Assembly: GCF_024498195.1 (NCBI RefSeq)
Contig: NZ_CP101824.1
Span: forward strand, 558,001 to 622,000
Length of the DNA stretch: 64,000 bases
Direction: 5' to 3'
Source: Halovivax cerinus
Lineage (GTDB): Archaea; Halobacteriota; Halobacteria; Halobacteriales; Natrialbaceae
In this document: positions 5,006 to 45,032 of the stretch, in pieces
Layout: every line of letters begins with the position of its first letter
Position numbering within the stretch: position 1 is the first letter of the stretch
Position numbers and translations under genes: made by a program
The notes under the pieces: generated by a model
Databases searched by the model: none
What the model saw: the letters and a program-made list of their open reading frames with translations, nothing else
Told to the model about the DNA's origin: nothing

Positions 5006-6092
5006 TGTTTGTATCCTCATTTGTTGCCTGTAGATACGAGATTTCGTTCTCGATGTCCTGAATACCCGCTGCCAGCGACACATTGTCGTGGACGATATCG
5101 TTAGTGGCTACTTGTTGCTTGACTATTGGTTTCGGTACGAACCCCAAGATCTTCTGTTCGATGAGCGTACAGACCACGTAGGCACTCGCCGCCCAGTGTG
5201 GTGAAATCTCATCATTTTGTTGGAGAATTCGACGCAACGCGGTGCTAATTTCTTTCCAGTTCCGGATTTGTACCTCGATATCCCGATTGTCAAATGGCGT
5301 CGCCGTGATGATCGGGTGACCTTCTGCAGGTTCAGAAATTTTTCTACCGAAAGCGTCTCTAAGTTGCGGGTACTGGTAGGCAGGCAACAGGAGAACGTGC
5401 GTCCAGTCGCCGGAATGATGTCGTTCGACCAGTTCGGCCGTCTCGACTGTTTTCTGGAAGTTCGTATCGTGGATCTTCACCTCGATAGAGATACCGCCAC
5501 CCGAGTTGATAATCAGGATGTCCTCATACCGGGTGGTTTCAGAGCCACCCGGCAAATGAGCCTCGGTCTCTACGCTATCTGGTGTTCCATCGTGCGAATT
5601 ATTAAACAGTTCATTAATCAGCACTCCCGACTCCATGAAGAGGTATGCGAGCGCGTAGGACCAATCTTCCTCCCGAACGAGCCGGATTGGGCCCGTAGAT
5701 CCGTGGACAGTCTGCCAGTCGGCTGATAGCGGGTCTGTGTCGAACTGGCTGGGTCCTGCTGCCCACACCTTCTCAGCCTTTTTTAGGGTGGCCAGCAACT
5801 CCTCGACATCCTCTTGGTGAGCCTTGCTGTAGGACTGCCACCAATTGTCAAGATCAATCCAGCCGCCGGCCAGCAATCTGTCGTCCAGAGTGATCGTGGT
5901 TTCGTCGACAAGTGCCGATTGATCCGTAGATACATACCGTTCCCACCAATCATCGATGCTGGCCCACTGACCGTCGAGCCAGCGAGAGTCCAACACGAGA
6001 CTATCGGCTTCAGTCAGTACCGACTGGTCTATATCGACGTGTGACTCCCACCAACTATCAAATGAAGCCCAGTCACAATCGATGACCTCCAT
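4998..6092 (-). CDS. PD-(D/E)XK nuclease-like protein with three W-rich repeats
   Basis: A 364-residue protein. Residues 8-95 hold three copies of a unit spaced exactly 35 residues apart, starting WASFDSWW (8), WASIDDWW (43) and WIDLDNWW (78). Residues about 185-215 read YEDILIINSGGGISIEVKIHD, which fits a restriction-endonuclease-like core with D191 and E204-V-K206 as the catalytic D...ExK. The rest is helical. It lies in a lower-GC cassette with a short partner gene overlapping its stop by 8 bases. The nuclease call rests on one motif and predicted strands; the repeat domain is probably a binding or recognition module. A defence role is inference. Confidence 0.78.
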   Translation of the reverse strand: MEVIDCDWASFDSWWESHVDIDQSVLTEADSLVLDSRWLDGQWASIDDWWERYVSTDQSALVDETTITLDDRLLAGGWIDLDNWWQSYSKAHQEDVEELLATLKKAEKVWAAGPSQFDTDPLSADWQTVHGSTGPIRLVREEDWSYALAYLFMESGVLINELFNNSHDGTPDSVETEAHLPGGSETTRYEDILIINSGGGISIEVKIHDTNFQKTVETAELVERHHSGDWTHVLLLPAYQYPQLRDAFGRKISEPAEGHPIITATPFDNRDIEVQIRNWKEISTALRRILQQNDEISPHWAASAYVVCTLIEQKILGFVPKPIVKQQVATNDIVHDNVSLAAGIQDIENEISYLQATNEDTNNG

Positions 6093-14604: not shown

Positions 14605-14976
14605 CACAATGTTTAATACTACCAACGGCAAATGGTCCCGATACAAAGTCAGTGCTACACCATCCGCTCCACGAACGGGGCGAGACGTCGACGAACGATA
14701 GACTGCCCACCGAAACGGCGTCAGAAAGGGTCCGTCTGGACAACTGACCCTTCTGGCCTGAGACGCTAAAAGCTTCGCCTCCGGGTAGAGCCGTCTATGC
14801 GTCGATCGGGCACCGAGGTGACCGCCCTCCCAGCGCCGAAACGCGGACCGAGAGCCACGCATGTTGCCAACACGTCCACGCACTCAACCGACGATACACG
14901 AATCGACGCCCGGGTCTACCGACCCGGAATTTCTCGAGATCGATCGCCCCGTCCGAGACAGTCGGGAGGATCCCGA

Positions 14977-16011
14977 ATGAGCAGACTCGAACCGATCAGT
15001 CCCAGCCAGGCCATCGAGATGTACATGGAGGGGCGCCGAGACGAGCTCAGCAAAGAGACGATCCCGTCTCACGTCTACCGGCTCGAAGCGTTCGAGCAGT
15101 GGTGCGAAGAGGAGGGGATCGATAACCTGAACGACCTCACCGGGCGGGATTTGTACGCCTTCCGGGTGTGGCGCCGAGAGGGCCACGGCGACGGACGCAG
15201 GGAAATCGCGACGATCACCCTTCGTGGACAACTCGCCACAGTCCGGGCTTTCCTCCGGTTCTGTGCCGATATCGACGCCGTTCCTGAAGGACTTCACGAG
15301 AAGGTTCCACTGCCGACGGTCTCCGGAAGCGAGTCGGTGAGCGATACGACGCTCGATCCCGACCGGGCGATCGATATCCTCGAACACCTCAATCGCCACC
15401 ACTACGCGTCTCGAAAGCACGTCACGCTATTACTTCTCTGGCACACTGGCGCGCGGGTCGGCGGAATTCGAGCCCTCGATCTCGACGATTGCCACCTCGA
15501 TTCCGACCCACCGGGACTCGAATTCGTCCATCGGCCAGCGCAGGATACGCCGCTGAAAAACGGCGAGAAAGGCGAGCGGTGGAACACGATCGGTGGGCAC
15601 GTCGCCGGCGTTGTCCAGGATTACATCGACGGGCCGAGAGACTGTGTAACCGACGAGTACGGCCGAGCACCGCTTCTGACGACACAATACGGCAGAGCGT
15701 CTCGTTCGGCGCTACGAGATACGCTGTACGACATCACCAGACCGTGTATGCGCGGTGCAGCGTGTCCGCACGACCGGGATCCGGAGGAGTGCGAAGCGAC
15801 GAACTACGTCAAAGCGAGCACGTGCCCGTCGTCGCGATCGCCGCACGACGTTCGGAGCGGCCGGGTGACGGCGTACCGCCGGCAGGACGTTCCCCGCCAG
15901 ATCGTCGGTGACCGTCTGGACGCGAGCGGCAACGTCCTCGACAAGCACTACGACCGCCGTAGCGAGCGCCAGAAGGCGAAACAACGACGCGACTACCTGC
16001 CAGACCAATGA
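14977..16011 (+). CDS. Tyrosine recombinase/integrase
   Basis: A 344-residue phage-type integrase starting at ATG 14977 (MSRLEPISPSQAIEMY), with GGGAGGA a few bases upstream; the frame is open further left but without family character. It has an N-terminal SAM-like core-binding domain, then the catalytic domain with R160 (HTGARVGGIRALDLDD), K194 (PLKNG), H290-x-x-R293 and Tyr325 (LDKHYDRRS). A Cys set (C257, C263, C272, C283) before the HxxR box probably binds zinc, a feature shared with the recombinases at 27.3 and 43.7 kb. An 18-bp repeat that also occurs at 44.84 kb lies 49 bases downstream. Confidence 0.93.
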   Translation: MSRLEPISPSQAIEMYMEGRRDELSKETIPSHVYRLEAFEQWCEEEGIDNLNDLTGRDLYAFRVWRREGHGDGRREIATITLRGQLATVRAFLRFCADIDAVPEGLHEKVPLPTVSGSESVSDTTLDPDRAIDILEHLNRHHYASRKHVTLLLLWHTGARVGGIRALDLDDCHLDSDPPGLEFVHRPAQDTPLKNGEKGERWNTIGGHVAGVVQDYIDGPRDCVTDEYGRAPLLTTQYGRASRSALRDTLYDITRPCMRGAACPHDRDPEECEATNYVKASTCPSSRSPHDVRSGRVTAYRRQDVPRQIVGDRLDASGNVLDKHYDRRSERQKAKQRRDYLPDQ

Positions 16012-16613: not shown

Positions 16614-18557
16614 ATGAGCCATGATGACAAGAGCTTCTTCGAGTATACCGAGTTTGCATCTGACTCGGAATCTAAGGATCCGGAGGCTGTCATTCAAGAA
16701 CGCCAGAATCCAGAGATAGCACATGCACATATTTGTAAGATAGCAGGGACGATTAACTCAGGTCTTGATGCGGTGCCTAGAGACCAACAAGATACTGCAG
16801 AGGTGTACGCTGTTGTGGACCTTTTCCGAGCGACAATGCAGTATATCGAGGAGTTCGGTTCCTATCTGAGGTACCTAATCTTGGACAAGGCATCATTCAT
16901 CAACGAGATTATCCGCACTTCGAGCGGAGATATTCGGCCTCTCTTTGAGGCATTTATCGAGGACAAGTTCGACGAGTACCTCCAGGAGCATGATGTCGAT
17001 GATAATCCGGAAGTCGTCTTGAGTTCGGTTTTTGGCTACGAGGCTGTTCAGAAGGGGACTATCAGCTATTCTGAAGAGGAACTGGAGGATGCGCCGTCGG
17101 ATGTTAATCTAGAAGACGTAGTTCTTCGTGATACTGATGAGGGAGTTGTGCCTGAAGGAGCCGAGGTGAAGGAACTGGTCAGTGATTCAATTGAGAACGT
17201 CCGTAACAAGCTCAAAGATATAGCTTTGTTCTACCTGAACTTTAGGGAGGCGTATAACGCCGTTAAGCACGGAAACCGAGTTACAGTTGGTAACAACACC
17301 CAGTTCGAACTGGAGAACGATGAGATGCTGGATGATCGGATTATTTTGGATGAAGCGATCGTGGAATTTCTCTGTAAAAATTCAGATCCTGAAAGTGATG
17401 GTGAACCATATCTGTTGACGATTCCCCGTTCGATTCTAGAGGAGAAATCACTAGGTGTCGTGGAGAATGCGCATACGTTGTACACTCAGTCGTACGATGT
17501 AGCCACGCTGGAGGACGGTGACGAGATAAATCTCAGTTTTTGGAAGTCAAGAAGAAGTAGCGGTGAAAGCAGGAATGACTTGATCCAGATATCCAATCCT
17601 GATTCGCGGGTTATCTTACCGAGGAGTGTTGTTCCGAAGGTGATTGAAGATTTGAAGATGCCAAATGAGACGAAGATAGAATGGACGGGTGATTGGTCGC
17701 TTTCCGGCGATACTCTTGAGTTCGAAGTTCAATATGAGACGGAGCCTACACCAGAATACCCCATTCACGTCGAACTCGTCTGGGAGCAGACCGATCACGA
17801 TATCCATGAGTTCGGAGAAGGCCAATTCAACTTTAATGTGGATACTGACGATCTCAGTGTCAGGCAGTACTTGGAACTTCTTGAGATTAAGAAGAGGGAT
17901 GATATCCGAACGGTTGAGCTCGTATTCCCAGATGGTGATGAGACACACCAGCTACGGGTAGGAGATGATTTTGAGGGTATTGACGTTCCAGGGCCGTCAG
18001 ATCCTGAGTTCTTCGAGTTTGTGAAACGTATCGGGTTGGCATCGGATACCCGTATTCCTTATCCTGAGCATATTTCGGAGAATCACTGGGAAGTATACGA
18101 GGAATATGCCGATTGCGACTTGGATTCTGAGACGGCGGATGAGATCCTTTCAGTGTTGAAGGAGTGTGGTGAGGAGGTGATGCGGTCATATGTCGTTGCT
18201 GCTATCTGGGAGGGCGAGTCTTCAAGCGTAGATGTCGATGAGGATGAGGCTGCGCACGTAGAGGCGTTAGGGGTGCTTCCGGGGATATTAAGTGTGAGGG
18301 AGAATCAGGGTTCAGAAGAGTCAAACCGGTTTCCTGGAGAGGAGTATCGGACGTATCCAGCTAGGTCAGAGTACACTTCTGAGGAGTTGTTCGGTAAACT
18401 GAAAGAGGATTATGGAGGGACATTCGGTGAACTCCAAGAGTCGGACATAGATAGCGAAAAGGCAGAATCAGAGTTTAGTCACAGAATACGTTTTGGCGAG
18501 GAAACGCTTTGGGGGACTATCGATAAGCACATTATTGATATCTTTCCTGTGTCTTGA
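16614..18557 (+). CDS. Large acidic protein of unknown function
   Basis: A 647-residue protein with no family that I recognise. Residues 1-230 look helical (DLFRATMQYIEEFGSYLRYLIL; SIENVRNKLKDIALFYLNF) and end in NFREAYNAVKHGNRV; an AYNAVKHG stretch after a long helical bundle recalls HEPN-like and related domains, but the R-to-H spacing is longer than the usual HEPN motif, so I only note it. Residues 230-450 look beta-rich, and the C-terminal 200 residues are acidic and mixed. Codon use is lower-GC than the core genes on the right. It stands alone at the left end of the island, which suggests cargo, perhaps defence. Confidence 0.8.
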   Translation: MSHDDKSFFEYTEFASDSESKDPEAVIQERQNPEIAHAHICKIAGTINSGLDAVPRDQQDTAEVYAVVDLFRATMQYIEEFGSYLRYLILDKASFINEIIRTSSGDIRPLFEAFIEDKFDEYLQEHDVDDNPEVVLSSVFGYEAVQKGTISYSEEELEDAPSDVNLEDVVLRDTDEGVVPEGAEVKELVSDSIENVRNKLKDIALFYLNFREAYNAVKHGNRVTVGNNTQFELENDEMLDDRIILDEAIVEFLCKNSDPESDGEPYLLTIPRSILEEKSLGVVENAHTLYTQSYDVATLEDGDEINLSFWKSRRSSGESRNDLIQISNPDSRVILPRSVVPKVIEDLKMPNETKIEWTGDWSLSGDTLEFEVQYETEPTPEYPIHVELVWEQTDHDIHEFGEGQFNFNVDTDDLSVRQYLELLEIKKRDDIRTVELVFPDGDETHQLRVGDDFEGIDVPGPSDPEFFEFVKRIGLASDTRIPYPEHISENHWEVYEEYADCDLDSETADEILSVLKECGEEVMRSYVVAAIWEGESSSVDVDEDEAAHVEALGVLPGILSVRENQGSEESNRFPGEEYRTYPARSEYTSEELFGKLKEDYGGTFGELQESDIDSEKAESEFSHRIRFGEETLWGTIDKHIIDIFPVS

Positions 18558-18922
18558 CAGCCTTCGTAACCAGTTTGCTGTTCTCTAGAAGAGACCCCAA
18601 CATTGTTTGGATATTATTTCTACCAAAAATAAAATTTGTTTATTCCAGGATCCCCACCATGTGCAGCAGGCGACTTTTTACATATCTCGGACAAATCGGT
18701 AGCCACGAAAGCCACACCGATCAATCATTTGTAGTTTAAACCCCAATGTAAATTAGTGATTGTGAGAAGACAATACAATAATCAATAACTGAGGAAATCA
18801 TTCGAAAGTTACCTATTACCAGCCTCGCCACTTTCGAGATGTCCCCGCACGTGCTCGTAAATGCCCGCCAGTTCTGGCAATAACACATAAGTATAAACCA
18901 CAAGCACCATCAGGTAGAGCAT
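18558..18922. other. Gene-less spacer carrying the cassette promoter
   Basis: About 365 AT-rich bases. TATAAA at 18892-18897 lies 26-31 bases before ATG 18923, so transcription of the two-gene operon probably starts there with almost no leader. Nothing else stands out. Confidence 0.5.
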
Positions 18923-20203
18923 ATGACAGCATCTGGCCTAGCCAGCGAGTATGACCAGAAAATCTATTCAAGGCTGGAGAGACGCGGAAAGCAAATTCTT
19001 TACGATGCTCTGAGTCTCTTTGAGGACGGAAACTTTGACAAGTCGGATTACGAAATAGAAGGACTCCGACGTGCACTTTCCTCCAAGTACGCTGATCTCA
19101 CTCGTGAGTGGTTGGACATCTATGATCGGTTTGATGCTGAGAACGTCGGCATCGATACGGCAATTCGGTTCCTCGCGGAGGAGTACGGAGTCAACTTCGA
19201 TGAAGAGACTCCAGAATCCAAGTACCAACTCGCTCTTCGAGTTCTCAGAGAAGACCTATCGAGCGAGGTTGACCATATCGTGGTTGGTTCTCGAATCAAG
19301 AGGGTCTCCTCAACGAAGACCTATACATTCGATGGAGGCCTTTCCTTAGAAGGCGTTGAGGACGCTGTTTCAGAATTTCATCACCAGTGGAATTCTGACG
19401 ATCAGACCAAAGCAGTTCGAATCCGTATTGAGGAATCAGGGACTGATAGTGTCGTCCTCCACATCACAGTGGAGCGTGGTATACAACCCAGAAAGGTTCG
19501 TGTTTTCGAATTCCGCGAGAATGACGAAACCGATATTCCTGCGGAGCCTGAAGTAACTACGAAAACATACCGAGATGTCAAGTCGAGCCGTGTTTATATC
19601 GATGCGAAAGGACAGGACGCTACCATAGTTCTGACGAAAGGGAAGCAAGGCTGGAAGCAAATTCTGAACGCCCTCTTTAGCCATGTGTTCGACGTTGATG
19701 AATTTGTGAGTGAACTCTCTACTAAACAGGTGAAGGAAGCTGGTCAATTAGAAGAAGATGCCTCCGAAGTGATCCAAGAGTCCGACGATCCGATTGAACA
19801 GACCCGGAATTTGATACACCACCGCGCCGACCAAGCGAAAGAGCAAGTTCGTAACGCGGACTCGCTCCCATCGGACAAACAGGAATCGGTCATCCAGTGT
19901 TTAGAGACAATCGAGTATGACGGCTCACAGGTATTCGACGACGCTTCAGTGGCAGCTGAAGAATTCTCATTAGTCGGCCGTGAGGGGCTTGAAGCAATCT
20001 TCGACAGAGTTGATCAGATGCGCGACAGCTTTCTTGACATTCTTGCTACCGCTGACGACGAAAATGCCGCTCTGGTGCTCTCAATCTCCAACCGCAACGT
20101 AGCAGTTCAAAGTGGGGATTATCGGCCCACAGACAGCGCTCGGTTATCCGACGACGATCAGCTCGCGCTAAAATACTTCTTCAATGAGGAAGACGTGGTA
20201 TGA
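18923..20203 (+). CDS. Unknown protein, first gene of nuclease operon
   Basis: A 426-residue acidic protein of unknown family. Its ATG is 26 bases after a TATAAA, and its stop overlaps the next start by 4 bases (ATGA), so it is coupled to the FokI-like nuclease gene. Residues 1-95 look helical (KQILYDALSLFEDGNFDKSDYEIEGLRRAL), 95-230 look beta-rich (VVLHITVERGIQPRKVRVFEF) and 250-385 helical with coiled-coil character (IEQTRNLIHHRADQAKEQV). No catalytic or nucleotide-binding motif is evident. A sensor or adaptor for the nuclease would fit, by inference only. Confidence 0.8.
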   Translation: MTASGLASEYDQKIYSRLERRGKQILYDALSLFEDGNFDKSDYEIEGLRRALSSKYADLTREWLDIYDRFDAENVGIDTAIRFLAEEYGVNFDEETPESKYQLALRVLREDLSSEVDHIVVGSRIKRVSSTKTYTFDGGLSLEGVEDAVSEFHHQWNSDDQTKAVRIRIEESGTDSVVLHITVERGIQPRKVRVFEFRENDETDIPAEPEVTTKTYRDVKSSRVYIDAKGQDATIVLTKGKQGWKQILNALFSHVFDVDEFVSELSTKQVKEAGQLEEDASEVIQESDDPIEQTRNLIHHRADQAKEQVRNADSLPSDKQESVIQCLETIEYDGSQVFDDASVAAEEFSLVGREGLEAIFDRVDQMRDSFLDILATADDENAALVLSISNRNVAVQSGDYRPTDSARLSDDDQLALKYFFNEEDVV

Positions 20204-21702
20204 GTGACCATATCTTGGATAAAGTAGCTGAGGCTATCAGTTTGCGACTTCGAGAGGGAGAATTGTCTGAAGGATCAGTTCCATCCTCGCTTACCGGGAC
20301 TGACTTTGTGAATGCTGAGTTGAAATCTCCTCAGCGGTGCCCCCAGTGTAGCGGGCAATTACAGAGGAAAGAAAAGGACGAGTCGGAACAGGTTTTCAGA
20401 ACACAGTGTACCGGTCGGTATGGCGAAGCACATGAGGAAACAGTCTCATTTGAGGAGTGGCGGTTCTTCGATTTGCGATGGGAATTGGTGATGCAGAGGG
20501 TTGCCAAGGGGATAGACCGCTCCTTGGAGATGGTCGAACCCCAAAGTCTCCCAAGTTCAGTACACGGAGTAACAGAGGATGGGCTTCGGATATCGATAAT
20601 AGGAGGGCGGAACCCGAAGCGGGAAGCGACAAAGGTGTATATACACGCACTTCGAGAAAATCAACCTACGCTACTTCTCGTCCCTGAAGAGGAGATTGAT
20701 TCCTACCTTGAAATGCAATCGCTGTTCACGACTGGTAGTTTGGTATATACTGTACCTCTGTCGATGTTGGGAGAAGATTCAGAGTATCTTGAAGGCCCGG
20801 TTGAGGCCATGGAACAGATTCAGGGTCTTGAGAAAGAACTCGCGCGAAATTTAGACGAAGAATCTCACAAGGTCGTCGGTCGGATTCATTCGAACCCACG
20901 GTACATGCTTACAGAACTGAATCACATGCGACTCCTTCGAACAAACAAAGAACTCCCTCAGAGTTCGGGTACTCGACTAGAAGAGGTCGGATATGCGGCA
21001 CTCTCTACTCTGACACCGACGTATCCAGATGCTGGTGGCGAGGATGATCGTGGTGACGAACTCCCCGACTTAGTTTTCAAAATTACAGATGTTGCCCCTG
21101 ATCCTGACGACAAGTATGCAACTGTGGGCGGCGTCGTCGATACAAAATCCGGGGATGATGCTGAATTTGGGAGCGAAGAAACAGAGGGAAAACATACCGA
21201 GTATTTGAGCCGCGGGAGGAGGCATCTAGACGTAGAGTATATATCTCACGTCTTCATCGTAAACGAGATTGACGGAAAGAAAGACATTGAGTTCTTCGAC
21301 AAGATGGACGAGTATTACAAGGCGAACGAGAACCTCGTGATCTGGTATGTCGTTGCGCTTGCGATGCTACTTGAAATGGCATTAACAGCCAACCTCCGGA
21401 ACGAGTTGCAACTCATTGGTGGCGACTTCCAGAAGGTATTCTATCCCTTCTTTGTCACCGATGCGTTCAAACAAACGAGTGTCAACGGAATTACGCGGGA
21501 GGTCGGACAACAAACAGAGGACGGCCCTGGAAAGGTTCAGAAAGCGTACAACGAAGCGTATAAGGAACGTCCAAAATTGCACGTCATAACCACCGATGTC
21601 GTGGAGGAACGGATACGGACTTTTGCAGAATCGCAGGGTGAGGTAGAAAATAACCTTGCAGAGTACTTCCGTGAACCATCTCTCCTCTATGAGGGGTACT
21701 GA
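20200..21702 (+). CDS. FokI-like PD-(D/E)XK nuclease with N-terminal Cys cluster
   Basis: A 500-residue protein. C47-P-Q-C50 and C70 in the N-terminal 80 residues suggest a zinc ribbon. Residues 286-340 read ELPDLVFKI...GGVVDTKSGDD, matching the FokI cleavage-domain pattern PD...VIVDTK with P289-D290 and D314-T315-K316 as likely catalytic residues; the following EYLSRGRR...ISHVFIVNE also parallels FokI (QRYVEEN...FKFLFVSG). The similarity is read by eye. The middle (about 90-250) probably recognises DNA or a partner. It is coupled to the 426-residue gene by a 4-base overlap and converges with a Ski2-like helicase 100 bp away. Confidence 0.8.
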   Translation: MSDHILDKVAEAISLRLREGELSEGSVPSSLTGTDFVNAELKSPQRCPQCSGQLQRKEKDESEQVFRTQCTGRYGEAHEETVSFEEWRFFDLRWELVMQRVAKGIDRSLEMVEPQSLPSSVHGVTEDGLRISIIGGRNPKREATKVYIHALRENQPTLLLVPEEEIDSYLEMQSLFTTGSLVYTVPLSMLGEDSEYLEGPVEAMEQIQGLEKELARNLDEESHKVVGRIHSNPRYMLTELNHMRLLRTNKELPQSSGTRLEEVGYAALSTLTPTYPDAGGEDDRGDELPDLVFKITDVAPDPDDKYATVGGVVDTKSGDDAEFGSEETEGKHTEYLSRGRRHLDVEYISHVFIVNEIDGKKDIEFFDKMDEYYKANENLVIWYVVALAMLLEMALTANLRNELQLIGGDFQKVFYPFFVTDAFKQTSVNGITREVGQQTEDGPGKVQKAYNEAYKERPKLHVITTDVVEERIRTFAESQGEVENNLAEYFREPSLLYEGY

Positions 21703-21803
21703 TCTTCTCCGCATTTCTCTACCGAAGCTATTACAACTGCTACAAGATCTCGGGTGTCACTCACGGAAGTCGATGTTCCTAGAGATTCACCAGAGCCGTC
21801 TAT

Positions 21804-24152
21804 TCAGAAATCATCGAGAGTTGTCGGTTGCATATCCGACGTCGTGGTTCCCTCATCAGACTCGGTGGATGACTCGCGCTCAGTCTCGTGGTACTGGATT
21901 AGTTCATCTGCGCCACGGCGTTCACGCGCAGACTCAGAAAACGGTACCTCCACCATTTCGTTATCGGTCGGGTCCCACTCCATAACACTCTCAAGGATAT
22001 TCTCACTAATCGTACTACCAATTCGGTGTGCCGACTTCACCGAGTCTTTGAACTGGACTTCATCGCTATTTGCTAGGAGTTTAGATAGACGTTCAATGAC
22101 AAAGTGTTCCCGTCCTGGATCCCAGTCTGTCCCGGCTCCCATCCGGTTCAACTGTTCCTCAAGGTTATTGTACAAGACTCGGGCAAACCGATCCACGTTC
22201 CGTACCAGATACATATCTGGCCCGGGAACTCCTGCATCAATCTGGTCGGCAAACATATCTAACCACTCCGGTTCAGTTGGCATCTCGAACGGTTCATATA
22301 GTAATTGAAGGCTCTCAATGGCGGTGCTTAGATTCGATGCGGTACTCGTCAGCCCAGATAGATCATCGGCCCCCAGGAGATCTTCTATATCCGTGACTGA
22401 GGCACCTGCACACCAGAACCAACAAATCATTGCAGATGTCATCCCCTCACTCTCGGTTAGATCGTGTAACTCCATCTTTGCGTTCAACGGCCCGTCACCG
22501 TCGATCCAGAAGCCTTCGTCACAATGGTAGTATTCTTCGGCGAGTCGAGCGACCAGCCTCTCCGGGGTGAGATCGTCTCCCTGTTCCTTCAGCCACTCCG
22601 TTAATTCGAGGACGGTTCGGACACTATCGTCAAACCAATTGCTGTGTTCATACTCGACGAGAGCAGTTCCGAGATCGGTTGCCGAATATCGCGTCTCATC
22701 ACTTTGTGGCTGTCCGATTGGCTTCTGGACCAATCCATGGTTGGACAGCCACGTCAACGTCTTCTCGACTTCGTCAACAATTCCTTTGCTGGGTTGCACA
22801 CCGTAGTCTTCACGAACATGTTGAGGCACTTGTTCAACGCTCTCAGACCAGAACAGCGTTGATTGTATGAAATCTAGAACCTCCAGATCGGTATCCCAGC
22901 CATAGTTCACGAGTTCCAAGACCAGCCAGCGCAGCGCTATTTGGCCGGACAAATGCGATTCCACATCTTCTAAGTCCTTCTGTTCAACGCGCGTATCGAA
23001 TTGGAATTTTTCCGTGGCATCGGCATCGTCGTACATGAGGAAGGCGTAGGCTTGGTCGTAGACATCAGCATCCCGTCCAGCACGCCCAATCCACTGCACA
23101 TATTCGTAGACGCCAATGAATTGCCGAAAGCCATCCCAGCGTTTCAGGTCTGCAACGATTACTGATTGAACGGGGGAGTCGAATCCGTAACTTAGCGTAG
23201 TCGTGCAGAACACGCATTTGATGATGCCTTTCTCCGTATATTCCTCGATAAGGTCCTTCAGGCCGCTCTCCATCTGCGCATGATGATATGCAATTCCGTT
23301 CCTGAGCAATCTGATGAGTTTGCGATGGGTATCCGTCAGTTCGGTCGTAACAGCTTCTTCGACCATTTCATGGAAGTCCACATCAGCCTCCGTTTCGAAC
23401 GAGGTTTCGTCCGCTAGCCCCCGAGCTCTGGCTTCAGCGTTACTTGTGGTATCGTTAAACACCAGGAACGGTCCTTTCTCCCGATTGGACCGAATTATTC
23501 CAGCAATTTGTTTCGCGTAGTTGTTGCCGTTTTTCTCGACAGGTTGCTCCAAGATTGGGACCGCCCTTTCCTCACTGCTAATCGTGAGATCGGCATCAAG
23601 CCATCGAGCGATAGTATGCGGGTTGCCGACAGTCGCGGAGATTCCCAGAATTTCCATTTCTTGATCGAGAGCTGCACTGATGCCTTTCTCGATATTGGGT
23701 CCGCGGTGAGAGCTGTAGATTTCGTGGAAGTCGTCCAGAATAACTGTATCGAACCGTTCAGCGTAGCCCCGAATAACGGCCTCGAAGAACGATTCGAACG
23801 TGGCCACGATAACATCAGCCTCTGGGTACCCGCGTCCCTGGTTTACGGTGACGCTCTTTGGTGCCCACGCAGAAACCGTCGTATGTTTCTCTCCGACCAG
23901 GGCGACAGATGGAACCAAATAAGCGACCTTGTTACCGTGTTGGAGAGCTTTTTTCGTGACTGCTTCAGCAACAAATGTCTTTCCGTTACCAGTCTCCGCG
24001 ATTAGGAGGTGATTGCCTTCATCGAGAACTCCGTCCTCAAATGCTTCGTATTGCGTAACAGTGAGGTCCGTAAACTCCGGAGGCTTTTGGTCTAGGAGGT
24101 CTTCGATAAGGGCCTGATCACTTTCGGGGATGCTATCCGGGACTGACGGCAT
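21804..24152 (-). CDS. Ski2/Hel308-like DEXH helicase
   Basis: A 782-residue superfamily 2 helicase. Motifs in order: Q-like TVTQYEAFEDG (about 31-41), Walker A AETGNGKT (52-59), VAYLVPSVAL (Ia), DVIVATFESF, DDFH (140-143) as motif II, SAT (172-174), FLVFNDTT (IV), CVFCTTTLSYGFDSPV (V) and QWIGRAGRD (353-361) as motif VI. The DDFH variant and QWIGRAGR box match Ski2-like enzymes (Hel308, HamB-like). The C-terminal half holds winged-helix and helical parts. The last 40 residues are acidic and end in DDF. It points at the FokI-like operon, with 100 bp between stops, and probably serves the same system. Confidence 0.93.
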   Translation of the reverse strand: MPSVPDSIPESDQALIEDLLDQKPPEFTDLTVTQYEAFEDGVLDEGNHLLIAETGNGKTFVAEAVTKKALQHGNKVAYLVPSVALVGEKHTTVSAWAPKSVTVNQGRGYPEADVIVATFESFFEAVIRGYAERFDTVILDDFHEIYSSHRGPNIEKGISAALDQEMEILGISATVGNPHTIARWLDADLTISSEERAVPILEQPVEKNGNNYAKQIAGIIRSNREKGPFLVFNDTTSNAEARARGLADETSFETEADVDFHEMVEEAVTTELTDTHRKLIRLLRNGIAYHHAQMESGLKDLIEEYTEKGIIKCVFCTTTLSYGFDSPVQSVIVADLKRWDGFRQFIGVYEYVQWIGRAGRDADVYDQAYAFLMYDDADATEKFQFDTRVEQKDLEDVESHLSGQIALRWLVLELVNYGWDTDLEVLDFIQSTLFWSESVEQVPQHVREDYGVQPSKGIVDEVEKTLTWLSNHGLVQKPIGQPQSDETRYSATDLGTALVEYEHSNWFDDSVRTVLELTEWLKEQGDDLTPERLVARLAEEYYHCDEGFWIDGDGPLNAKMELHDLTESEGMTSAMICWFWCAGASVTDIEDLLGADDLSGLTSTASNLSTAIESLQLLYEPFEMPTEPEWLDMFADQIDAGVPGPDMYLVRNVDRFARVLYNNLEEQLNRMGAGTDWDPGREHFVIERLSKLLANSDEVQFKDSVKSAHRIGSTISENILESVMEWDPTDNEMVEVPFSESARERRGADELIQYHETERESSTESDEGTTTSDMQPTTLDDF

Positions 24153-24694: not shown

Positions 24695-25673
24695 GGCCTT
24701 GTTTAGACGGCTGAAATCAGCCAGTAGCAGCGTCAAGCGCTAGTTCGACGTTTCTGACGGCACATTTCAGGACGAGTTCGCGGAACTGGCCGAACCAGGT
24801 TCGAGCTCGCACGATCTCACCGTATTTTCGCCGGAGCGCGAAAAACGTCGCTTCGATATTCGATCGTTGATGGTACGTCGTATCGTCGAGCAAGACATTG
24901 TTTGCGATGCCGTGCCAACCGAATTCTCGGTACTTTATCACCGGTGTAACGCCCTCAGATCGCAATTTATGACGAAGTAGTTCCCAGTCGTAACCTTTGT
25001 CCGCGGTCAGTATCGTCAGTTTCTCTAGGTTCCGCGTGAGCAGTTGCCACGCGATCTGAGAGTCGTGAGGTTGTTTCATCGAGCAATGAATGTCGAGAAT
25101 CACCCCAGTTTCGCAGTCGATCAACGCCGTCGTTTTCACCGCTCTAAAGGTGTAATTCGTCCGTTTGGCGTAGTGCTGACTCGCCGCGATGCGATCCATT
25201 CCGGTTGCGTCGATCGCCTGAATGTCGCCGGTGTCGTGCAACTGCGCCGACAGGCGGAGAAAGTCGCGCCAGATCGGCATTTTCAGCGGCTGCATGCGCG
25301 CACAGACGGTGGTAAAATCGGGCAACTCAGCCGGTTCTAAATCGAGAATTCGACCGATTCGAGGCATTTCTGCAAGGACGTCGAGCAGCCGTCGATACGG
25401 CAAATCGAGGTAGGTTTTGAGACCGTGAATTGTCACGATTACCCAGTCGGCATAGCCGCCCTCACCCGGTTGAAACGCCGGTCTTGGCGCTCCAGCGACG
25501 GCTTTTTGTGAGAGCGACACAACCTGCTTCGTGAAGCGGGCAATCTTCGTAGGCACAACCGAAGCTACCCGCTTCATTTCCTAGTACATTCGACAAGTAG
25601 CAGCGTTTGCTAGGACCCTAGAACTTACTAGTGAAGCGCGCTCCGTGCTGGTGACGAGCATCTAAACAAGGCC
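24695..25673 (-). mobile_element. IS5-type insertion sequence, complete
   Basis: A 979-bp element with perfect 13-bp terminal inverted repeats (GGCCTTGTTTAGA at 24695-24707; TCTAAACAAGGCC at 25661-25673). It is flanked by a 9-bp direct repeat, GATGAAGAG, at 24686-24694 and 25674-25682, the mark of a transposition event. One full-length DDE transposase gene lies inside. Intact ends, intact gene and identical target repeats suggest a recent insertion. The exact ISH name would need a database. Confidence 0.93.
24717..25577 (-). CDS. IS5-family DDE transposase
   Basis: A 286-residue transposase starting at ATG 25577 (MKRVASVVPTKIARFTKQV). Catalytic residues read D123 (AIDATGMDRI), D193 (LTADKGYDWE) and E241 (QRSNIEATFFALRRKYGE), the DDE set of IS5-like haloarchaeal elements. 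It fills the insertion sequence almost end to end (22 bp from the left terminus, 96 bp from the right). No frameshift or stop is present, so it may be active. Confidence 0.95.
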   Translation of the reverse strand: MKRVASVVPTKIARFTKQVVSLSQKAVAGAPRPAFQPGEGGYADWVIVTIHGLKTYLDLPYRRLLDVLAEMPRIGRILDLEPAELPDFTTVCARMQPLKMPIWRDFLRLSAQLHDTGDIQAIDATGMDRIAASQHYAKRTNYTFRAVKTTALIDCETGVILDIHCSMKQPHDSQIAWQLLTRNLEKLTILTADKGYDWELLRHKLRSEGVTPVIKYREFGWHGIANNVLLDDTTYHQRSNIEATFFALRRKYGEIVRARTWFGQFRELVLKCAVRNVELALDAATG

Positions 25674-26412
25674 GATGAAGAGAGGATTGGGAATCTTGAT
25701 GGGTTCGCTGAGCTATTCGAATTAGTCGAGCATGACGAATTCGGTGGAGAAGAAATCAGTCGAGAAGTCGCTGCGACGCACCTCATAGCAATCGCATATC
25801 AGTTAACGAATGCAGCTATCGACTACGAAGGAATATCACGGAAGTCAGAGCTGAGTACCGACGGAACGATTGGAAAAATCCAACCCCTAGAAGATCTGTT
25901 GGGGTTTCGGCGCGCTCTAACTCGGGGAATAAAGATGGGACGAACAAACCTAGAAGCAAAAGACGAAGAGAAATACCTCAACGACCAGATACCGGGCAGA
26001 GTAATCGTTGATACGAACACAAGATTATACGAACCGCCGACAAAAGGAGATTTGACTGGATTCGGCACCGAAGATTTTCGCAAAGGGAACCAACAGCGAC
26101 AAGGTGCGACCAATATAGCAGATGATGAAATTGTCGATCCTGCCGAAATCCGGGCGGAGATGGCCGTTCAGATCGATCTTGCCGTGAGCAGAGAAATTGG
26201 CCGATGGCAATCATCCGTTGATATGAAGGAGATGGATCGAACACTTGGATAACTACGATCGGAGAAGTTACTGCTGAAACGGATTTCAGAATTTCACGGT
26301 TCAGTTTTTAAGGACGGTGTAGATGGCCACGAGCAGAGCAAAATATCGTGGTCAAAATGGCAATGACAGCGATTGTGACGCCGCTCTACTATACTAAGTG
26401 GGTCGAACCACG

Positions 26413-27315
26413 ATGGCGAAAGAATCGAACCGGACCACCGGGATTTCAGATTACCTGAAAGGTCTGTCCCAGAACGCTGGGTCACCAACCTATCGGTCTC
26501 ACAAGGTTGCGCTCAAGGCGTACGAGCGCTGGTGCTCCCGCGAAGGTCTTGCACCTGAGCATCCAAAGCACGCAGATATCGCAGCCTTCCTCGAATCCCG
26601 GCTCGTCGATTGCGACAATAGTCTCGAAACCGCGCAAGGTCACCTCTGCTCGCTCTCGAACTACAGCGCAATCGATGCTCGTGCGGACCCGCGACTGACG
26701 AAGGTCCGGATAGCAACCCACCTCAATCCGTCATTGTCGTCCCCTGTACGACGACTTCGACATCGTGTTCTCGGCCCGTTCTGTGCAGATCACAGTCCCA
26801 ACGGATCTCCTGCGTGGGCTGTCGATCAACTTCTCTCTCATCTTCGCCGACATCAGTACGGGACACGAACACACGCTATTGCAGCCACAATTGCTGATAC
26901 CCGTGGAGGGCTTCATCAAGTGCGATCTCTCGACGTTGGCAGTCTGGATACAGGCAACGAATCGGTCGAACTCCCAGTTTCTGGCGATTACTTCGTTGCT
27001 GACACGATACACCCTTCATGGAAGGTAAACCTCTCGACGACAACCTCTGACGTGCTGGCAACTTATCTCAGCTATGAACGCACTAATGCATCTGTTGGAG
27101 AGACCAGCCCGCTTTTCACCACCAACCATGGGAGAGTTAGCACCTCGACTATCCGCCGATCAATTCGTGCAGAAAGTAAGAAAGCGCTTAGTTACGAAGA
27201 CTTCCGTTTCGAGTCGGTGGGGTGTTCAAGCAAAGGGATAGACTCCGAAGAGGAGCAAATTGTCTACCCATCTGATATTCGTTGGGCGGCTATCAAACGT
27301 GAGGTGCAGGAATGA
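26413..27315 (+). CDS. Tyrosine-recombinase-like protein lacking the catalytic tyrosine
   Basis: A 300-residue protein from ATG 26413 (MAKESNRTTGIS); a GTG at 26398 is possible. It has a core-binding domain (GSPTYRSHKVALKAYERWCSREGL) and part of a catalytic domain: an Arg in ADTRGGLHQVRSLD fits box I and SPLFTTNHGRVSTSTIRR parallels the end of the other island recombinases. It stops after YPSDIRWAAIKREVQE, where others have HxxR and later Tyr, so His is replaced by Ser and the tyrosine is missing. Its stop overlaps the next recombinase start by 4 bases, so it may be an accessory subunit rather than a relic. Confidence 0.72.
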   Translation: MAKESNRTTGISDYLKGLSQNAGSPTYRSHKVALKAYERWCSREGLAPEHPKHADIAAFLESRLVDCDNSLETAQGHLCSLSNYSAIDARADPRLTKVRIATHLNPSLSSPVRRLRHRVLGPFCADHSPNGSPAWAVDQLLSHLRRHQYGTRTHAIAATIADTRGGLHQVRSLDVGSLDTGNESVELPVSGDYFVADTIHPSWKVNLSTTTSDVLATYLSYERTNASVGETSPLFTTNHGRVSTSTIRRSIRAESKKALSYEDFRFESVGCSSKGIDSEEEQIVYPSDIRWAAIKREVQE

Positions 27316-28433
27316 CGGAGGCACTTGTGGACGCAATCGCCAAGATAGACGATCCTGACACAATAAAGCAGATACTGGTAGCCGCGGGCGTCGAATCTTC
27401 ACAGGATTTGGACGCGAGTTCTCCAGATCAGCCCTCACTATCATCTCTATACGATCGATATCTTTCACGCCGAAAGAACCGAAGCTCTGCGACTCGCGCC
27501 CAGTATAAGCGCACAATACCACCGTTTATCGATTTTGCAGAAACGAGAAACGTGTCTTCACCTGCCGGGCTCTCTACAGAATTACTCGACAATTACGTTG
27601 CCGAGCTAAATCAAGAATTCAAGAATGATTCGACGATCCTTACGTATACGAAAAACGTACGCACATGGCTTCGATGGCTCTCTAAGCGAGATTACTGCGA
27701 CGATGCAGTTTACCGCATTCTAGACAAGGAAGAACTCGGACTCTCACCAACTGCTAGAGACCACGCTATTCCCACCGAGGAAGCCCAGGCGATTCTTGGG
27801 AAACTCCGAAAGCAGCGGAGAGGATCAGCTCAGCACGCACTCACAGAACTCCTGTGGAATACAGGAGCGCGACTAAGCTGCGTCCATTCGCTCGATATCG
27901 ACGACTTCAACAAAGGAGAGGAATCGATCAAGTTCCGCCATCGGCCAAATGCTGGGACACGGCTGAAGAACGGGAGCCTTAGCGATGGCACAGCAGGAGA
28001 TGGAGAACGGGATGTTATAGTGAACGATCGAGTCGTCAAGGCTCTCACCTCTTACATCAATAACCAACGTCCTGACATTCGTGATGATCACGGCCGCGCT
28101 CCGCTATTCGCAACGCGTTTCGGTCGGGCAGCTAAGTCTACGCTGCGTCGGTGGGTCTACGACGCAACGAGTTGTCGCTGGGCAAAGGGAAAGATCGAAA
28201 GCAAAGACTGTGATGCCGCATGCGATCCAGATTCTAATGTCTGCCCCTGTTCATATTACCCACATGCGATTCGCCGAGGGGCGATCGTCCATCATCTCAG
28301 CAACGGATTGCGACGGGACCGTGCGAGTGAAAGGTTCGATGTATCCATTCCGGTCCTTACGAGACACTATGATCCAAGATCGGAGAAGAAGTTGAAAGAA
28401 GATCGAGCAGAGGCCGTTCGAAACTCATGGTGA
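27312..28433 (+). CDS. Tyrosine recombinase/integrase
   Basis: A 373-residue recombinase. An N-terminal leader of about 45 residues precedes the SAM-like domain (SLYDRYLSRRKNRSSATRAQY). Catalytic residues are R187 (NTGARLSCVHSLDIDD), K219 (TRLKNGS), H318-x-x-R321 (YPHAIRRGAI) and Tyr353 (LTRHYDPRS). A Cys cluster (C288, C300, C304, C311, C313) before HxxR probably binds zinc. Its start overlaps the stop of the catalytically incomplete recombinase gene by 4 bases (ATGA), so both are co-translated. Possibly these two act together in integration or inversion. Confidence 0.9.
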   Translation: MTEALVDAIAKIDDPDTIKQILVAAGVESSQDLDASSPDQPSLSSLYDRYLSRRKNRSSATRAQYKRTIPPFIDFAETRNVSSPAGLSTELLDNYVAELNQEFKNDSTILTYTKNVRTWLRWLSKRDYCDDAVYRILDKEELGLSPTARDHAIPTEEAQAILGKLRKQRRGSAQHALTELLWNTGARLSCVHSLDIDDFNKGEESIKFRHRPNAGTRLKNGSLSDGTAGDGERDVIVNDRVVKALTSYINNQRPDIRDDHGRAPLFATRFGRAAKSTLRRWVYDATSCRWAKGKIESKDCDAACDPDSNVCPCSYYPHAIRRGAIVHHLSNGLRRDRASERFDVSIPVLTRHYDPRSEKKLKEDRAEAVRNSW

Positions 28434-28902: not shown

Positions 28903-31900
28903 ATGGGTAGAAATGAGGTTACATCTGTTCCAGAGTATTTGCCTCCGGCCGCAATTGCAGAGTACATCAGCTACGGACAGTGTCCTCGGTACGCAAAACA
29001 CCGGATCCAGGAGATAAGCGGGACGGCAAATCACAAATCAGAGGAGTTCCGAGAGGGGTTCGATCCCCTGAATATACTGTTATCATCCGCCGGGGAGGAG
29101 TTTGAGTCGGATGTGGGCGAGCAAATTGAGGTGCACACCCGCGAGACCATTGACTGTAATCAGAACGATGAAGAAGAAGAAGAGTTCACGGACGACCACG
29201 AGATAGTTCTTCGGCAACTTAGAACAGCGACGTCTGCTGAGGCCGATTGGGAGGGGAATCCGGTGCTTCTGTACCAGGTGACTGTGACGGGGTCAATCAA
29301 CGAGCAAGGCATCCATGGTGATGCCGATCTTCTCTTCATCTGGTCTACCCCATCGGGCGCTGAAGTCCGCGTCATTGACGTTAAACGGACGAAGGAACAG
29401 AAAGTCTATCATCAAATTCAAGCTGCTGCATACGCAGCGGTCCTTCGACAACTCATCAATGGGTCCGATAGCCTCTCAATTGACCAGATTACAATTTCAG
29501 GTGGGGTTATTACGCAGGAAACGGCGGTGACTCCAGTCACACGAGACAGTCTCCCAGCATTCGATATCGATCCCAGGATTGCAGATCTTCACCGATTGCT
29601 TGATTCGGAGTCATCGCTATTGACGGCGCTACGGTCCGAACGGGGAGAGGTAGAGTTTCAACTCGACAGTAAGTGCGGTACGTGCCCGTACAATGAGGGG
29701 TGTGTTACAGAGTCGTTTGAATACGGCGACATTCGGTTGCTCGGACTAACAGTTTCACAACAGCGGACGCTCCGTGAGTACGGAGTACAGACAATTGCTG
29801 ATGTGGCCGCGTTGTGCCTTACGCCGGATGAAAAAGAATGGACACCCGTATCGTACAAGAGGGGGTCGTTCCAAACAGATACGTACAAAGCTCTCGCCCG
29901 TATTCCCGGACTCGGTCAGTTGTTCCCACAACTTGTGTATCGGGCAGAGGCGATGCTTGATGCACTACAGACAGAACCGGATGGGGTTAGTGATAGACCG
30001 CAGAACTGGTTACCAGGAAGCGGCCGTTGTTCACTACCGGACGACGAACCCAGCAACGCGGCCCCGGGCGACTATGAGTGGCAAGATGGGTCGATGGTCC
30101 GGGTGTATTTGAATGTGCAATATGACCACCTTCGGGACCGTCTAATTCAGTTAAATGCGCGCGTCACAGCCACTGCCAGCGAGACTCCACCTCAGCGTAT
30201 CTCAGTCGTTTCTGACGCCGCACCGGATGAGGCCGTCGCAGCAGACAAACAGGAACAATTGATGCTGGAACGGTTCTGTCCAAAGCTTTTCAAGGCGGTA
30301 CGGACGGTCAGTGATGGTCTCTCGTTTGAGAAGACATCACAGTGCGATCCTCTGTTGCATTTCTACATGTATACAGAGGGAGAATACGACGCACTCGTCG
30401 AGGCTTTTGACCGACATCCCGATAGTGCGGAGAGTAGAGCGTTCCGGTCAGCGGTTGAGGGAACCGGGCAATCAAGTGAATCGATGGTATCTACATTACG
30501 ATCTGAAATCGAGTCCCATATCGTTCTAGAGACGCCATCGCCCGGGTTGCTACACGCCTATAAGGAGCTTTATCCGACAGTTGACGGAGCGTATAGTAAG
30601 TCACGGGACCAGAAGTCATGGTCGTATTCGCCGCCGAGTTCGGAGGACTCGTATGATCTGCGGCGCGTGTTTTCACGGCGATTATTCGATATAGGTGCAG
30701 CAGCAGTGTACCCCGACGTTCCTGTAAGTGATCTTGTGAAAGAGGCAAAACGTCGCCTCAACAACAATCCCAAGGAGGAAAGCGATAGTGGAATCGGAAT
30801 CGAGATAGATCCAGAGACAGCTGAATGGTTCGATGGGATCAACACGCGGATGCGACATGATGCGTCAATTCCGTTAGCCTATCTATGGGCGGCTGTCGGG
30901 CGGATTGATGACGACTGGGAGAGTAAAGAGAGCATCGATGAGTCCGCTTTGGCAGAGTTCGAGTTGAACCGGTATCGGTTCCGGGATACCGACCACAACT
31001 CAGAAATTGGTCCAGCAGATGTTCAGACGTTAGGCCGGCATCTATGTGATATACTGGAGCACGTGGAACGCTCGCTCAGCTATAAGGATCCATTCTTCAG
31101 TAAGGAACCGTACCCAGTCGAAGAATTAGATGCTGATACGTTTGATCCGCCGTCACTCGCGGACGGTGTCAAAGAGTATCTTCACGAAGAATACCGTGCA
31201 AACCGAGAGGAAAAACACCATCTGTACCGACAGTTTCCGCTCCAGCGGGTTCTTGCCGGTGAATCGATCCCCGTATATGTGACAGAGGTTGATAAGCAGA
31301 ACCGGAATACACTTCGTGTGACTGGGCGGCTCCGTTACGAACACAATCTACTTTTCGATGATGGCGGGGAACAGGTCAAACGGGCCTGTCGGCAGAAGGG
31401 GGCACAAGGGACGTCGAGTGGATCTTGGATGGTCGCTAATCCATATGACCCAAGTATGGTTGGAGCGGAAGTGACACGCCCGTACGCAATCGAACGGGGA
31501 GTTAATGCTACTATCCAGCAGTTAGATATTGACAACGATCAGATTCAGTTCACACTACGGAACTTCTGGAGCGATGGCGGTGATTTCGGCCAACCACACG
31601 CAGATTGGACGACGAATCCTGATTACGCTGCTGACGATCATAAAGTCCACATCAAATCTGGGGAGTGGCTCATTCTTGACCCTCAAACAGATGATATTAC
31701 GGCAGAACGCGCTCAGCAAGCACTAGATCACGCAGACACGAACGCGCTTCACCAGCGATTGGAGCAAGTGCGACACGGGAAAATTCACCAACCCGAGACG
31801 CCGCTGTTTGAGTTAGACAATCCCTCGGTCGATGATGGACGTCCAGATGGAGTTGACGCCGTTGCAACCTGGTTGCGTCAGGACGTCGGTGAAGAGACAT

Positions 31901-33639
31901 ATCCCAGTCCGAAGCAACAAAAGTTCATAACCGAAGATCGCCAGCAGTTCGTCGCCCTGCAAGGGCCGCCGGGGACAGGGAAAACCGCGGCAACAATGGC
32001 ACCAGCGTTACTCGCACGCTTGTATGCAGGTGCTTGTAACGGTGTGAGCGTGAATGGGCTGGTGACTGCGCCATCAAACACAGCAATTGACGAGTTACTC
32101 TCGGACGTCGCCGATCTCCTGAACGAGGCAGCTGAGGCTGGACCGTTAGCATCGACCGATCTGGATATTGAACTGGTCCGAATCGGAGAAGAGCCAGCTG
32201 ACCCGATTGATGGCGTGACATACGCGAATTATAACAACGAGGACCATGCTCAACGGATCCGGCGGATCACGCAACGTCTACGATCGGAAGGAACGGTGAC
32301 ACTGGGAAAGGGGTCCGGGTCCGAGAATGCATCGTCGTCAGGGGAGTTCACAGTTACAGGTGAAGAGCAATCCGGGCTATCTTCGTTTACGGCATCCAGT
32401 CAGGATGGGGAAATGGATACCGAGGCGGAGAAAGCGACTGATCAACCGCTAACGTTGGTATTTGCGACAACAACGCGTTCATGGAGGTTCCTAAAGGAAG
32501 TGGCTCCTGGGTCAAACCCAGATGAGCGAACCCGAGCTGAGCAGCAATTATGGCACTTGCTGGCTGTGGATGAGGCGTCGATGTTAGAGTTGCCAAACTT
32601 CCTCTTGGCTGGGAGCGGATTCCACGAATACGGGCAAGTTCTTGTCGGAGGAGACCATCGACAGTTGCCACCGGTTCAGAAACGTGACTGGGAGGAAGTA
32701 CGCCGGCGAGATATACGATCGACAGCAGCACATCTTTCGACACTGGACTATCTCCGCCTCCTTCGCGGTGATGAAGTACTAGAACCCGAGCGCCAGTCCC
32801 AGGTTATGTGTAAACGTGATCCGGAGGCTGTGGAAATTGAACTGATTCAACTGGAAACGACGTATCGGTTCGGAGAATGGACCGCTGAGTTCGTGCAACA
32901 GACTGTGTACGAACAAGATGAGATAAAGTACTCGTCTGGTCGAGACGAGATTGAACCAGTACTCTCAGTTCTTGAGGATCTCAATGACCCGCTCGTTCCG
33001 TTATTCGATGAAGACACAACTGTTGCTCTACTCACCTACACAGGGAAAAATCAGTTCCAGCAATCGAACCCCATCGAGGGCGCGTTAACAGAAGCGCTTG
33101 TCTTGGCGATCGATTCTGCATTCAAGGTAGGTGTCGTCACGCCGCATAATGCCCAACGTGGGCGTGTCCAGTCGAAGTTGCAAAAGCACGGCTATACAGT
33201 CGCTGGAGATGGTTCGTCAGCAGAGGAGAAGGAGGGTGAAGCTATCCAGGTAGACACGGTTAATCGATTCCAGGGCGGGGAACGTGACTTGATGATGGTA
33301 AACGCAACTGTTTCTGATCCGAACTACATCGCTGCTGAGGACAAGTTCCTATTGACGGAAAATCGTATCAACGTGTCGTTCACTCGCCATCGAGACATGT
33401 TGATCGTGTTCGCCCCAGAGAGTCTCATTGGTTATCTCCCTGAAGATCCAGATCTGTATGAGCAAGCAACGCTTTGGAAATCTCTGTCGATAGCGTTAGG
33501 AGAAGCTCCAATTGTAGACGAAGAGCCTGACTGGCAAGGACAACTCGGGTACGTATTAACGGCTGCAGGGATTGAAAGCGTCCCTGAGGTGGTCCGGCGA
33601 GAACTTCAATCAACAATCACTATCTATACGAATAGCTGA
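28903..33639 (+). CDS. Cas4/RecB-like nuclease fused to SF1 helicase
   Basis: A 1578-residue protein. Residues about 1-270 form a RecB/Cas4-like nuclease: an early Cys (YGQCPRYAKH), GDADLLFIW and VRVIDVKRTK (D...DxK) with the following QIQAAAYAAVL helix, and CGTCPYNEGC, which with the first Cys would hold an iron-sulphur cluster. The middle 700 residues are largely unassigned. The C-terminal 560 are a UPF1/Dna2-type SF1 helicase: GPPGTGKT (about 1020-1027), LLAVDEASML (about 1219-1228), VLVGGDHRQLPPV, ETTYRFGEW, VVTPHNAQRGRVQSKL and VDTVNRFQGGERDLMMV. DNA end processing or anti-phage activity is likely; the host gene context favours defence. Confidence 0.92.
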   Translation: MGRNEVTSVPEYLPPAAIAEYISYGQCPRYAKHRIQEISGTANHKSEEFREGFDPLNILLSSAGEEFESDVGEQIEVHTRETIDCNQNDEEEEEFTDDHEIVLRQLRTATSAEADWEGNPVLLYQVTVTGSINEQGIHGDADLLFIWSTPSGAEVRVIDVKRTKEQKVYHQIQAAAYAAVLRQLINGSDSLSIDQITISGGVITQETAVTPVTRDSLPAFDIDPRIADLHRLLDSESSLLTALRSERGEVEFQLDSKCGTCPYNEGCVTESFEYGDIRLLGLTVSQQRTLREYGVQTIADVAALCLTPDEKEWTPVSYKRGSFQTDTYKALARIPGLGQLFPQLVYRAEAMLDALQTEPDGVSDRPQNWLPGSGRCSLPDDEPSNAAPGDYEWQDGSMVRVYLNVQYDHLRDRLIQLNARVTATASETPPQRISVVSDAAPDEAVAADKQEQLMLERFCPKLFKAVRTVSDGLSFEKTSQCDPLLHFYMYTEGEYDALVEAFDRHPDSAESRAFRSAVEGTGQSSESMVSTLRSEIESHIVLETPSPGLLHAYKELYPTVDGAYSKSRDQKSWSYSPPSSEDSYDLRRVFSRRLFDIGAAAVYPDVPVSDLVKEAKRRLNNNPKEESDSGIGIEIDPETAEWFDGINTRMRHDASIPLAYLWAAVGRIDDDWESKESIDESALAEFELNRYRFRDTDHNSEIGPADVQTLGRHLCDILEHVERSLSYKDPFFSKEPYPVEELDADTFDPPSLADGVKEYLHEEYRANREEKHHLYRQFPLQRVLAGESIPVYVTEVDKQNRNTLRVTGRLRYEHNLLFDDGGEQVKRACRQKGAQGTSSGSWMVANPYDPSMVGAEVTRPYAIERGVNATIQQLDIDNDQIQFTLRNFWSDGGDFGQPHADWTTNPDYAADDHKVHIKSGEWLILDPQTDDITAERAQQALDHADTNALHQRLEQVRHGKIHQPETPLFELDNPSVDDGRPDGVDAVATWLRQDVGEETYPSPKQQKFITEDRQQFVALQGPPGTGKTAATMAPALLARLYAGACNGVSVNGLVTAPSNTAIDELLSDVADLLNEAAEAGPLASTDLDIELVRIGEEPADPIDGVTYANYNNEDHAQRIRRITQRLRSEGTVTLGKGSGSENASSSGEFTVTGEEQSGLSSFTASSQDGEMDTEAEKATDQPLTLVFATTTRSWRFLKEVAPGSNPDERTRAEQQLWHLLAVDEASMLELPNFLLAGSGFHEYGQVLVGGDHRQLPPVQKRDWEEVRRRDIRSTAAHLSTLDYLRLLRGDEVLEPERQSQVMCKRDPEAVEIELIQLETTYRFGEWTAEFVQQTVYEQDEIKYSSGRDEIEPVLSVLEDLNDPLVPLFDEDTTVALLTYTGKNQFQQSNPIEGALTEALVLAIDSAFKVGVVTPHNAQRGRVQSKLQKHGYTVAGDGSSAEEKEGEAIQVDTVNRFQGGERDLMMVNATVSDPNYIAAEDKFLLTENRINVSFTRHRDMLIVFAPESLIGYLPEDPDLYEQATLWKSLSIALGEAPIVDEEPDWQGQLGYVLTAAGIESVPEVVRRELQSTITIYTNS

Positions 33640-44735: not shown

Positions 44736-44842
44736 GGTGGATCGAAGCGAAGACGAGAAGGAGTGTGCTTCTAAACAGGGGTTTTGAGGTCTGTTGTGTG
44801 CGTTATCGTATGGCTGACACCCCCGAAGAGTCTGGATTGTCC

Positions 44843-44860
44843 CCGACAGGGCCCATCCAG
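44843..44860 (+). repeat. 18-bp direct repeat, right copy (putative att)
   Basis: CCGACAGGGCCCATCCAG, identical to 16060-16077. It lies between the right-hand recombinase and the GC-rich core region, where composition changes. Together the two copies enclose about 28.8 kb. No tRNA gene overlaps it. Confidence 0.6.
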
Positions 44861-45032
44861 GGACTACTCGATTTGTGACCGTCCCCGGAAGTGCAGTTTT
44901 CGGGCGTTTCACCCACGTAACGCCCCGTTTTCCTGATTCGGAAATCGCCGGTTCGAAAGTGGAGCCCAGGTGGCGACCACCCGCGGGTCGCCGCCGTCTT
45001 GCGATTTCTATAGCCGTAAATTGGTGGTTAGT

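Follow-up and report, generated by a model that had tools for sequence, protein, structure and literature searches.

Two neighbouring genes of a haloarchaeal island as a probable DNA-targeting defence module that is independent of the adjacent helicase

In the genome of Halovivax cerinus, a gene for a predicted FokI-like nuclease lies between a gene of no recognised family and a gene for a Ski2-like helicase, which raises the question of whether these three neighbours function together and, if they do not, which of them belong to each other. The initial annotation of the window (the whole stretch of 64,000 nucleotides that was analysed) had read them as a candidate three-gene defence system following the logic of Hachiman, in which a nuclease is combined with a Ski2-like helicase. 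The three open reading frames, their lengths, the 4-bp overlap between the first two and the motifs described there were all confirmed, and the genes, here called A, B and C, are laid out as follows.

18892-18897, + strand: TATA-like box TATAAA, 25 nt 5' of the A start codon
18923-20203, + strand: gene A, 426 aa ORF, predicted DNA-binding sensor or clamp
20200-20203, + strand: ATGA overlap (4 bp) of the A stop and B start codons, translational coupling
20200-21702, + strand: gene B, 500 aa ORF, FokI/BspD6I-like PD-(D/E)XK nuclease by prediction
21064-21147, + strand: predicted nuclease core of B, P289-D290 to D314-T-K316, with E261 upstream of the core
21804-24152, - strand: gene C, 782 aa ORF, Hel308/HamB-like Ski2-type helicase, a neighbour outside the A-B module

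The TATAAA box would suit a short-leader archaeal promoter, which agrees with the earlier description of A as promoter-proximal. B and C are convergent, with their stop ends 101 bp apart. The GC content falls from 60-65% at the window's ends to 47-51% in the A-B-C region, and integrase-like genes and a transposase are scattered through the low-GC part; the region therefore looks like an island. Tyrosine-integrase-like genes bracket and interrupt it (14797-16011, +; 26398-28433, +; 43722-45182, -), and the portion at 26398-27315 has no catalytic-domain match and may be degenerate. A 647-aa orphan 5' of A (16614-18557, +) has no Pfam, PADLOC or NCBIfam match, and its homologue is absent beside other A-B pairs.

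Gene A is not a chance reading frame: compared with a 78%-identical relative it has a dN/dS of 0.07, and 21 genomes carry homologues. These were found by a reverse search with the A profile among the 391 class-level genomes in which the A, B and C families were counted. A adjoins B in 20 of the 21, and in the remaining genome A sits at a contig end and B on a separate contig of 3.2 kb. The first search for B had yielded homologues in 20 of the 391 genomes, one of which (G192) was rejected as a weak, spurious match. Three A genomes appeared unpaired on that first pass; in two of them a divergent B immediately adjoins A, and the third is the one at the contig edge. In the sampled genomes, then, A and B are obligately paired, and their reading frames overlap at 19 of the 20 readable junctions, most commonly by 4 nt (ATGA or GTGA), so that the coupled unit proposed from the H. 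cerinus locus holds across the families. The distances within the two families correlate (Mantel r = 0.953, p = 1e-4), to which common host ancestry could contribute. The closest copy of the pair, 75-78% identical, is found in Halobacterium sp. KA-4. At one locus (G370, L113:8573-11366), A is present in two pieces ~1.6 kb apart, probably as the result of an insertion, and B is intact.

The helicase behaves differently. C carries a Walker A motif (AETGNGKT) and a DDFH motif, and its best models are Hel308 (2.6e-58) and then HamB (3.4e-23), placing it nearer to Hel308 by model score. This resemblance and the adjacency of all three genes in H. cerinus are what speak for a defence system of A, B and C with Hachiman-like logic. 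The C family is present in 17 of the 391 genomes (E <= 1e-60), and beyond H. cerinus it occurs together with B in two of them: in one the genes are more than 1 Mb apart, and in the other (G113) the A-B pair and the C homologue share an island at a distance of ~15 kb, which could also be taken in favour of a three-gene system. However, no close C homologue was found beside any other A-B locus, including the 75%-identical copy, with a helicase match at one locus that is weak (89 bits), and the close relatives of C (64-78%) stand without A-B alongside and share no common neighbour. When the H. cerinus genome is left out, the co-occurrence of C and B is not significant (Fisher p = 0.18). C, being convergent, also lies outside the A-B operon. 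It is independent of A-B and not in the module, which makes a three-gene system highly improbable; the recurrence of helicase and nuclease in other genomes that such a system implies is limited to these two genomes, and the parallel with Hachiman consequently falls away for A-B. What likeness there is to Hachiman (HamA-HamB) consists of a HamB-resembling Ski2-like helicase next door, whereas the helicase is not conserved with A-B, the gene order and strand differ, and the HamA models of PADLOC and Pfam match neither A nor B.

A DDE transposase gene of an IS element (24717-25577, -) lies just upstream of the start of C and could have removed a former partner of this helicase. In a branch of the C family with helicases of ~750 aa, a gene of 249-304 aa is found directly upstream, overlapping or nearly so, at six loci (L066:7294-10295, L067, L068, L070, L071 and L072). 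Three of these upstream genes were tested and have no PADLOC or Pfam match, and it is possible that they and the helicase of this branch constitute a Hachiman-like pair with an unrecognised partner.

Protein B consists of an N-terminal C47-C50-C70-(H78) cluster, a middle alpha/beta domain and a C-terminal PD-(D/E)XK nuclease domain. Despite a mean identity of ~31%, all 21 members of the B family retain E261, D290, D314 and K316 as well as C47, C50 and C70, and position 78 is a histidine in 18 of the 21 and a cysteine, glutamate or aspartate in the others; the cysteine cluster is thus very likely a zinc site. A Foldseek search of the PDB with the AlphaFold (AF2) model of B (pLDDT 79) places Nt.BspD6I, a type IIS-derived nickase, at the top with several entries (prob 0.99, E 2e-3), and the PD-(D/E)XK enzymes Can2, PspGI and McrC follow lower in the list with insignificant E-values. 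A profile was built from FokI, the sequence of which was verified against 1FOK/2FOK, and five FokI-domain proteins from plasmids. It scores 24.6 against the C-terminal profile of B, and none of the 101 column-shuffled or reversed control profiles reaches this value (20.3 or less). In this alignment the PD...VDTK motifs are in register. The predicted structure and the shuffled-profile test agree, and the assignment of B as a FokI/BspD6I-like PD-(D/E)XK nuclease, which the initial annotation had made from the PD...VDTK motif and the Cys cluster, is well supported. Other comparisons were negative: B has no match above chance among the PADLOC, Pfam and NCBIfam models (releases of 2023, 2025 and June 2026, respectively), hhalign found nothing between B and a single AlwI-family protein, the RE_AlwI model matches nowhere in the H. 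cerinus genome, and searches of PDB sequences with the A and B profiles gave chance matches only.

With FokI and Nt.BspD6I, B shares the C-terminal PD-(D/E)XK domain and the E...PD...(V)DTK arrangement in the FokI register. It differs from them in its N-terminal domains with their zinc cluster, in lacking a Pfam or NCBIfam restriction-enzyme match, and in having an obligate partner and no cognate methyltransferase nearby. The FokI/BspD6I-like character of B, the fact that BspD6I itself serves as the large subunit in a type IIS enzyme of two subunits, and the restriction-modification genes near some A-B copies are consistent with A and B forming a two-subunit restriction enzyme, in which A would provide specificity, B would cut and a protecting methyltransferase would be encoded elsewhere in the genome. 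However, no methyltransferase family common to the A-B neighbourhoods was found in the flanks of the A-B loci, and the adjacent restriction-modification systems differ in type from copy to copy. We therefore consider a restriction enzyme of this kind improbable, even if it is one of the two main rivals to the reading preferred below.

Protein A is harder to place. It has no match above chance among the PADLOC, Pfam and NCBIfam models, nor has its family among the PHROGs, and no sequence relatives of A were found outside the A-B pair. Its AlphaFold (AF2) model (pLDDT 83) has a helical N-terminal region (~1-128) and a mixed alpha/beta body (~129-420). In the PDB, Foldseek ranks CENP-N first (E 0.018, prob 0.96), RdgC second (E 0.023, prob 0.85) and RnlA, more weakly, next, all with modest E-values and low TM-scores. 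In BFVD, where the best matches are uncharacterised proteins, five named RdgC or recombination-associated phage proteins are among the top 15; phage RdgC is often annotated "exonuclease", as is the match at rank 6. RexA, RdgC and Iml3/Chl4 (CENP-L/N) have been reported as one fold group, the members of which bind DNA as dimers in the shape of a ring or horseshoe (PMC11077077). The likeness of A to this group lies in the predicted fold; in sequence and profile no similarity was detected, as A does not match the Pfam RdgC model (PF04381), its hhalign comparison with RexA is not significant, and neither is that with RdgC, for which 10 of 101 controls score equally high. A also begins with a helical stretch of ~128 aa that RdgC lacks. 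Since the E-values are modest, the TM-scores low and the profile test does not separate A from controls, the RdgC/RexA/CENP-N-like fold is a moderate lead, on which A would plausibly be a DNA clamp.

The appearance of RnlA among the weaker fold matches bears on the other main rival, a system of the toxin-antitoxin type in which B is a toxic nuclease, A its antitoxin and any antiviral effect a matter of abortive infection. Obligate pairing, co-divergence and an upstream gene that overlaps the nuclease gene in translational coupling would all suit such a system. Nevertheless, A and B are both large, multi-domain proteins, A is more like DNA-binding proteins than antitoxins, and the core of B resembles those of restriction nucleases, so that we hold this explanation to be unlikely.

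The pair is patchily spread, occurring in about 5% of the sampled haloarchaeal species (~1 in 20), and its named hosts include Halobacterium, Halorubrum, Haloarcula, Halogranum, Halomicrobium and Halomicroarcula. B homologues are carried on eight haloarchaeal plasmids, and none was found in phage records or IMG/VR. In a phylum-wide sample, all five matching genomes belong to the window's own order, with no B beyond it. The closest copy, in Halobacterium sp. KA-4, adjoins a complete type I restriction system (HsdR/S/M), and chosen neighbours of other copies include BREX with a full-length BrxC, a GajB/RT-associated-like helicase, a type III restriction enzyme, a type IIG enzyme and a PLD/DrmD-like helicase. 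RdgC and CENP-N have their roles on the chromosomes of the host (PMC11077077), and the likeness of A to them might instead point to chromosome biology, with A and B as a housekeeping pair for DNA repair or segregation. A pair that is patchy, fast-diverging, located on plasmids and islands and set beside defence genes argues against this idea, to which we give very little credence.

Obligate pairing, co-divergence, a conserved active site, defence genes as neighbours and independence from the helicase together suggest that A-B is probably a haloarchaeal defence module of two genes that is self-contained and targets DNA. In the mechanism that we propose, A would clamp certain DNA, such as intermediates of viral replication or recombination, and recruit or license B, which may bind A or the DNA through its zinc-binding N-terminus and would cut once two catalytic domains are brought together. 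FokI-type domains usually cut as two copies, which could be provided by a clamp partner that is itself a dimer. Sensing by A and cutting of foreign DNA by B would, if we infer correctly, result in antiviral or anti-plasmid immunity. The initial proposal of a defence system outside the named ones is therefore upheld, as probable, for A-B, neither protein of which is recognised by the PADLOC, Pfam or NCBIfam models used, and is not sustained in its three-gene form. Literature searches on RdgC-like proteins and defence, FokI-like proteins and defence, and KwaB with RexA gave no description of the pair, which appears to be undescribed.

More tentatively, and with some doubt, A-B may represent a hitherto undescribed class of immunity in archaea, one where a FokI-type nuclease is programmed or licensed by a clamp of the RdgC/RexA/CENP-N fold, foreign DNA being marked by its structure and not by sequence or methylation. 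If so, A-B would be related to Rex exclusion but armed with a nuclease: RexA is partnered by the membrane protein RexB and A by a PD-(D/E)XK nuclease. Through its predicted fold, A connects the exclusion of phages (RexA) with the control of recombination (RdgC) and with DNA binding at the kinetochore (CENP-N). Little of archaeal immunity outside CRISPR and restriction has been mapped (PMC12988326), and A-B is a compact, recurrent pair that was missed by the defence library used (PADLOC) and offers a clear catalytic site to mutate.

Other genes in the window may also be of interest. A 364-aa ORF (4998-6092, -) has a motif of the E-V-K type (GGGISIEVKI) and may be another nuclease-like gene. A 1578-aa protein (28903-33639, +) combines an N-terminal PD-(D/E)XK nuclease (Cas4/TM0106-like) with a C-terminal UPF1-like helicase, the latter resembling MkoA, and is probably a separate defence gene; its relatives share an island with A-B in genome G113 (L066:1522-6154).
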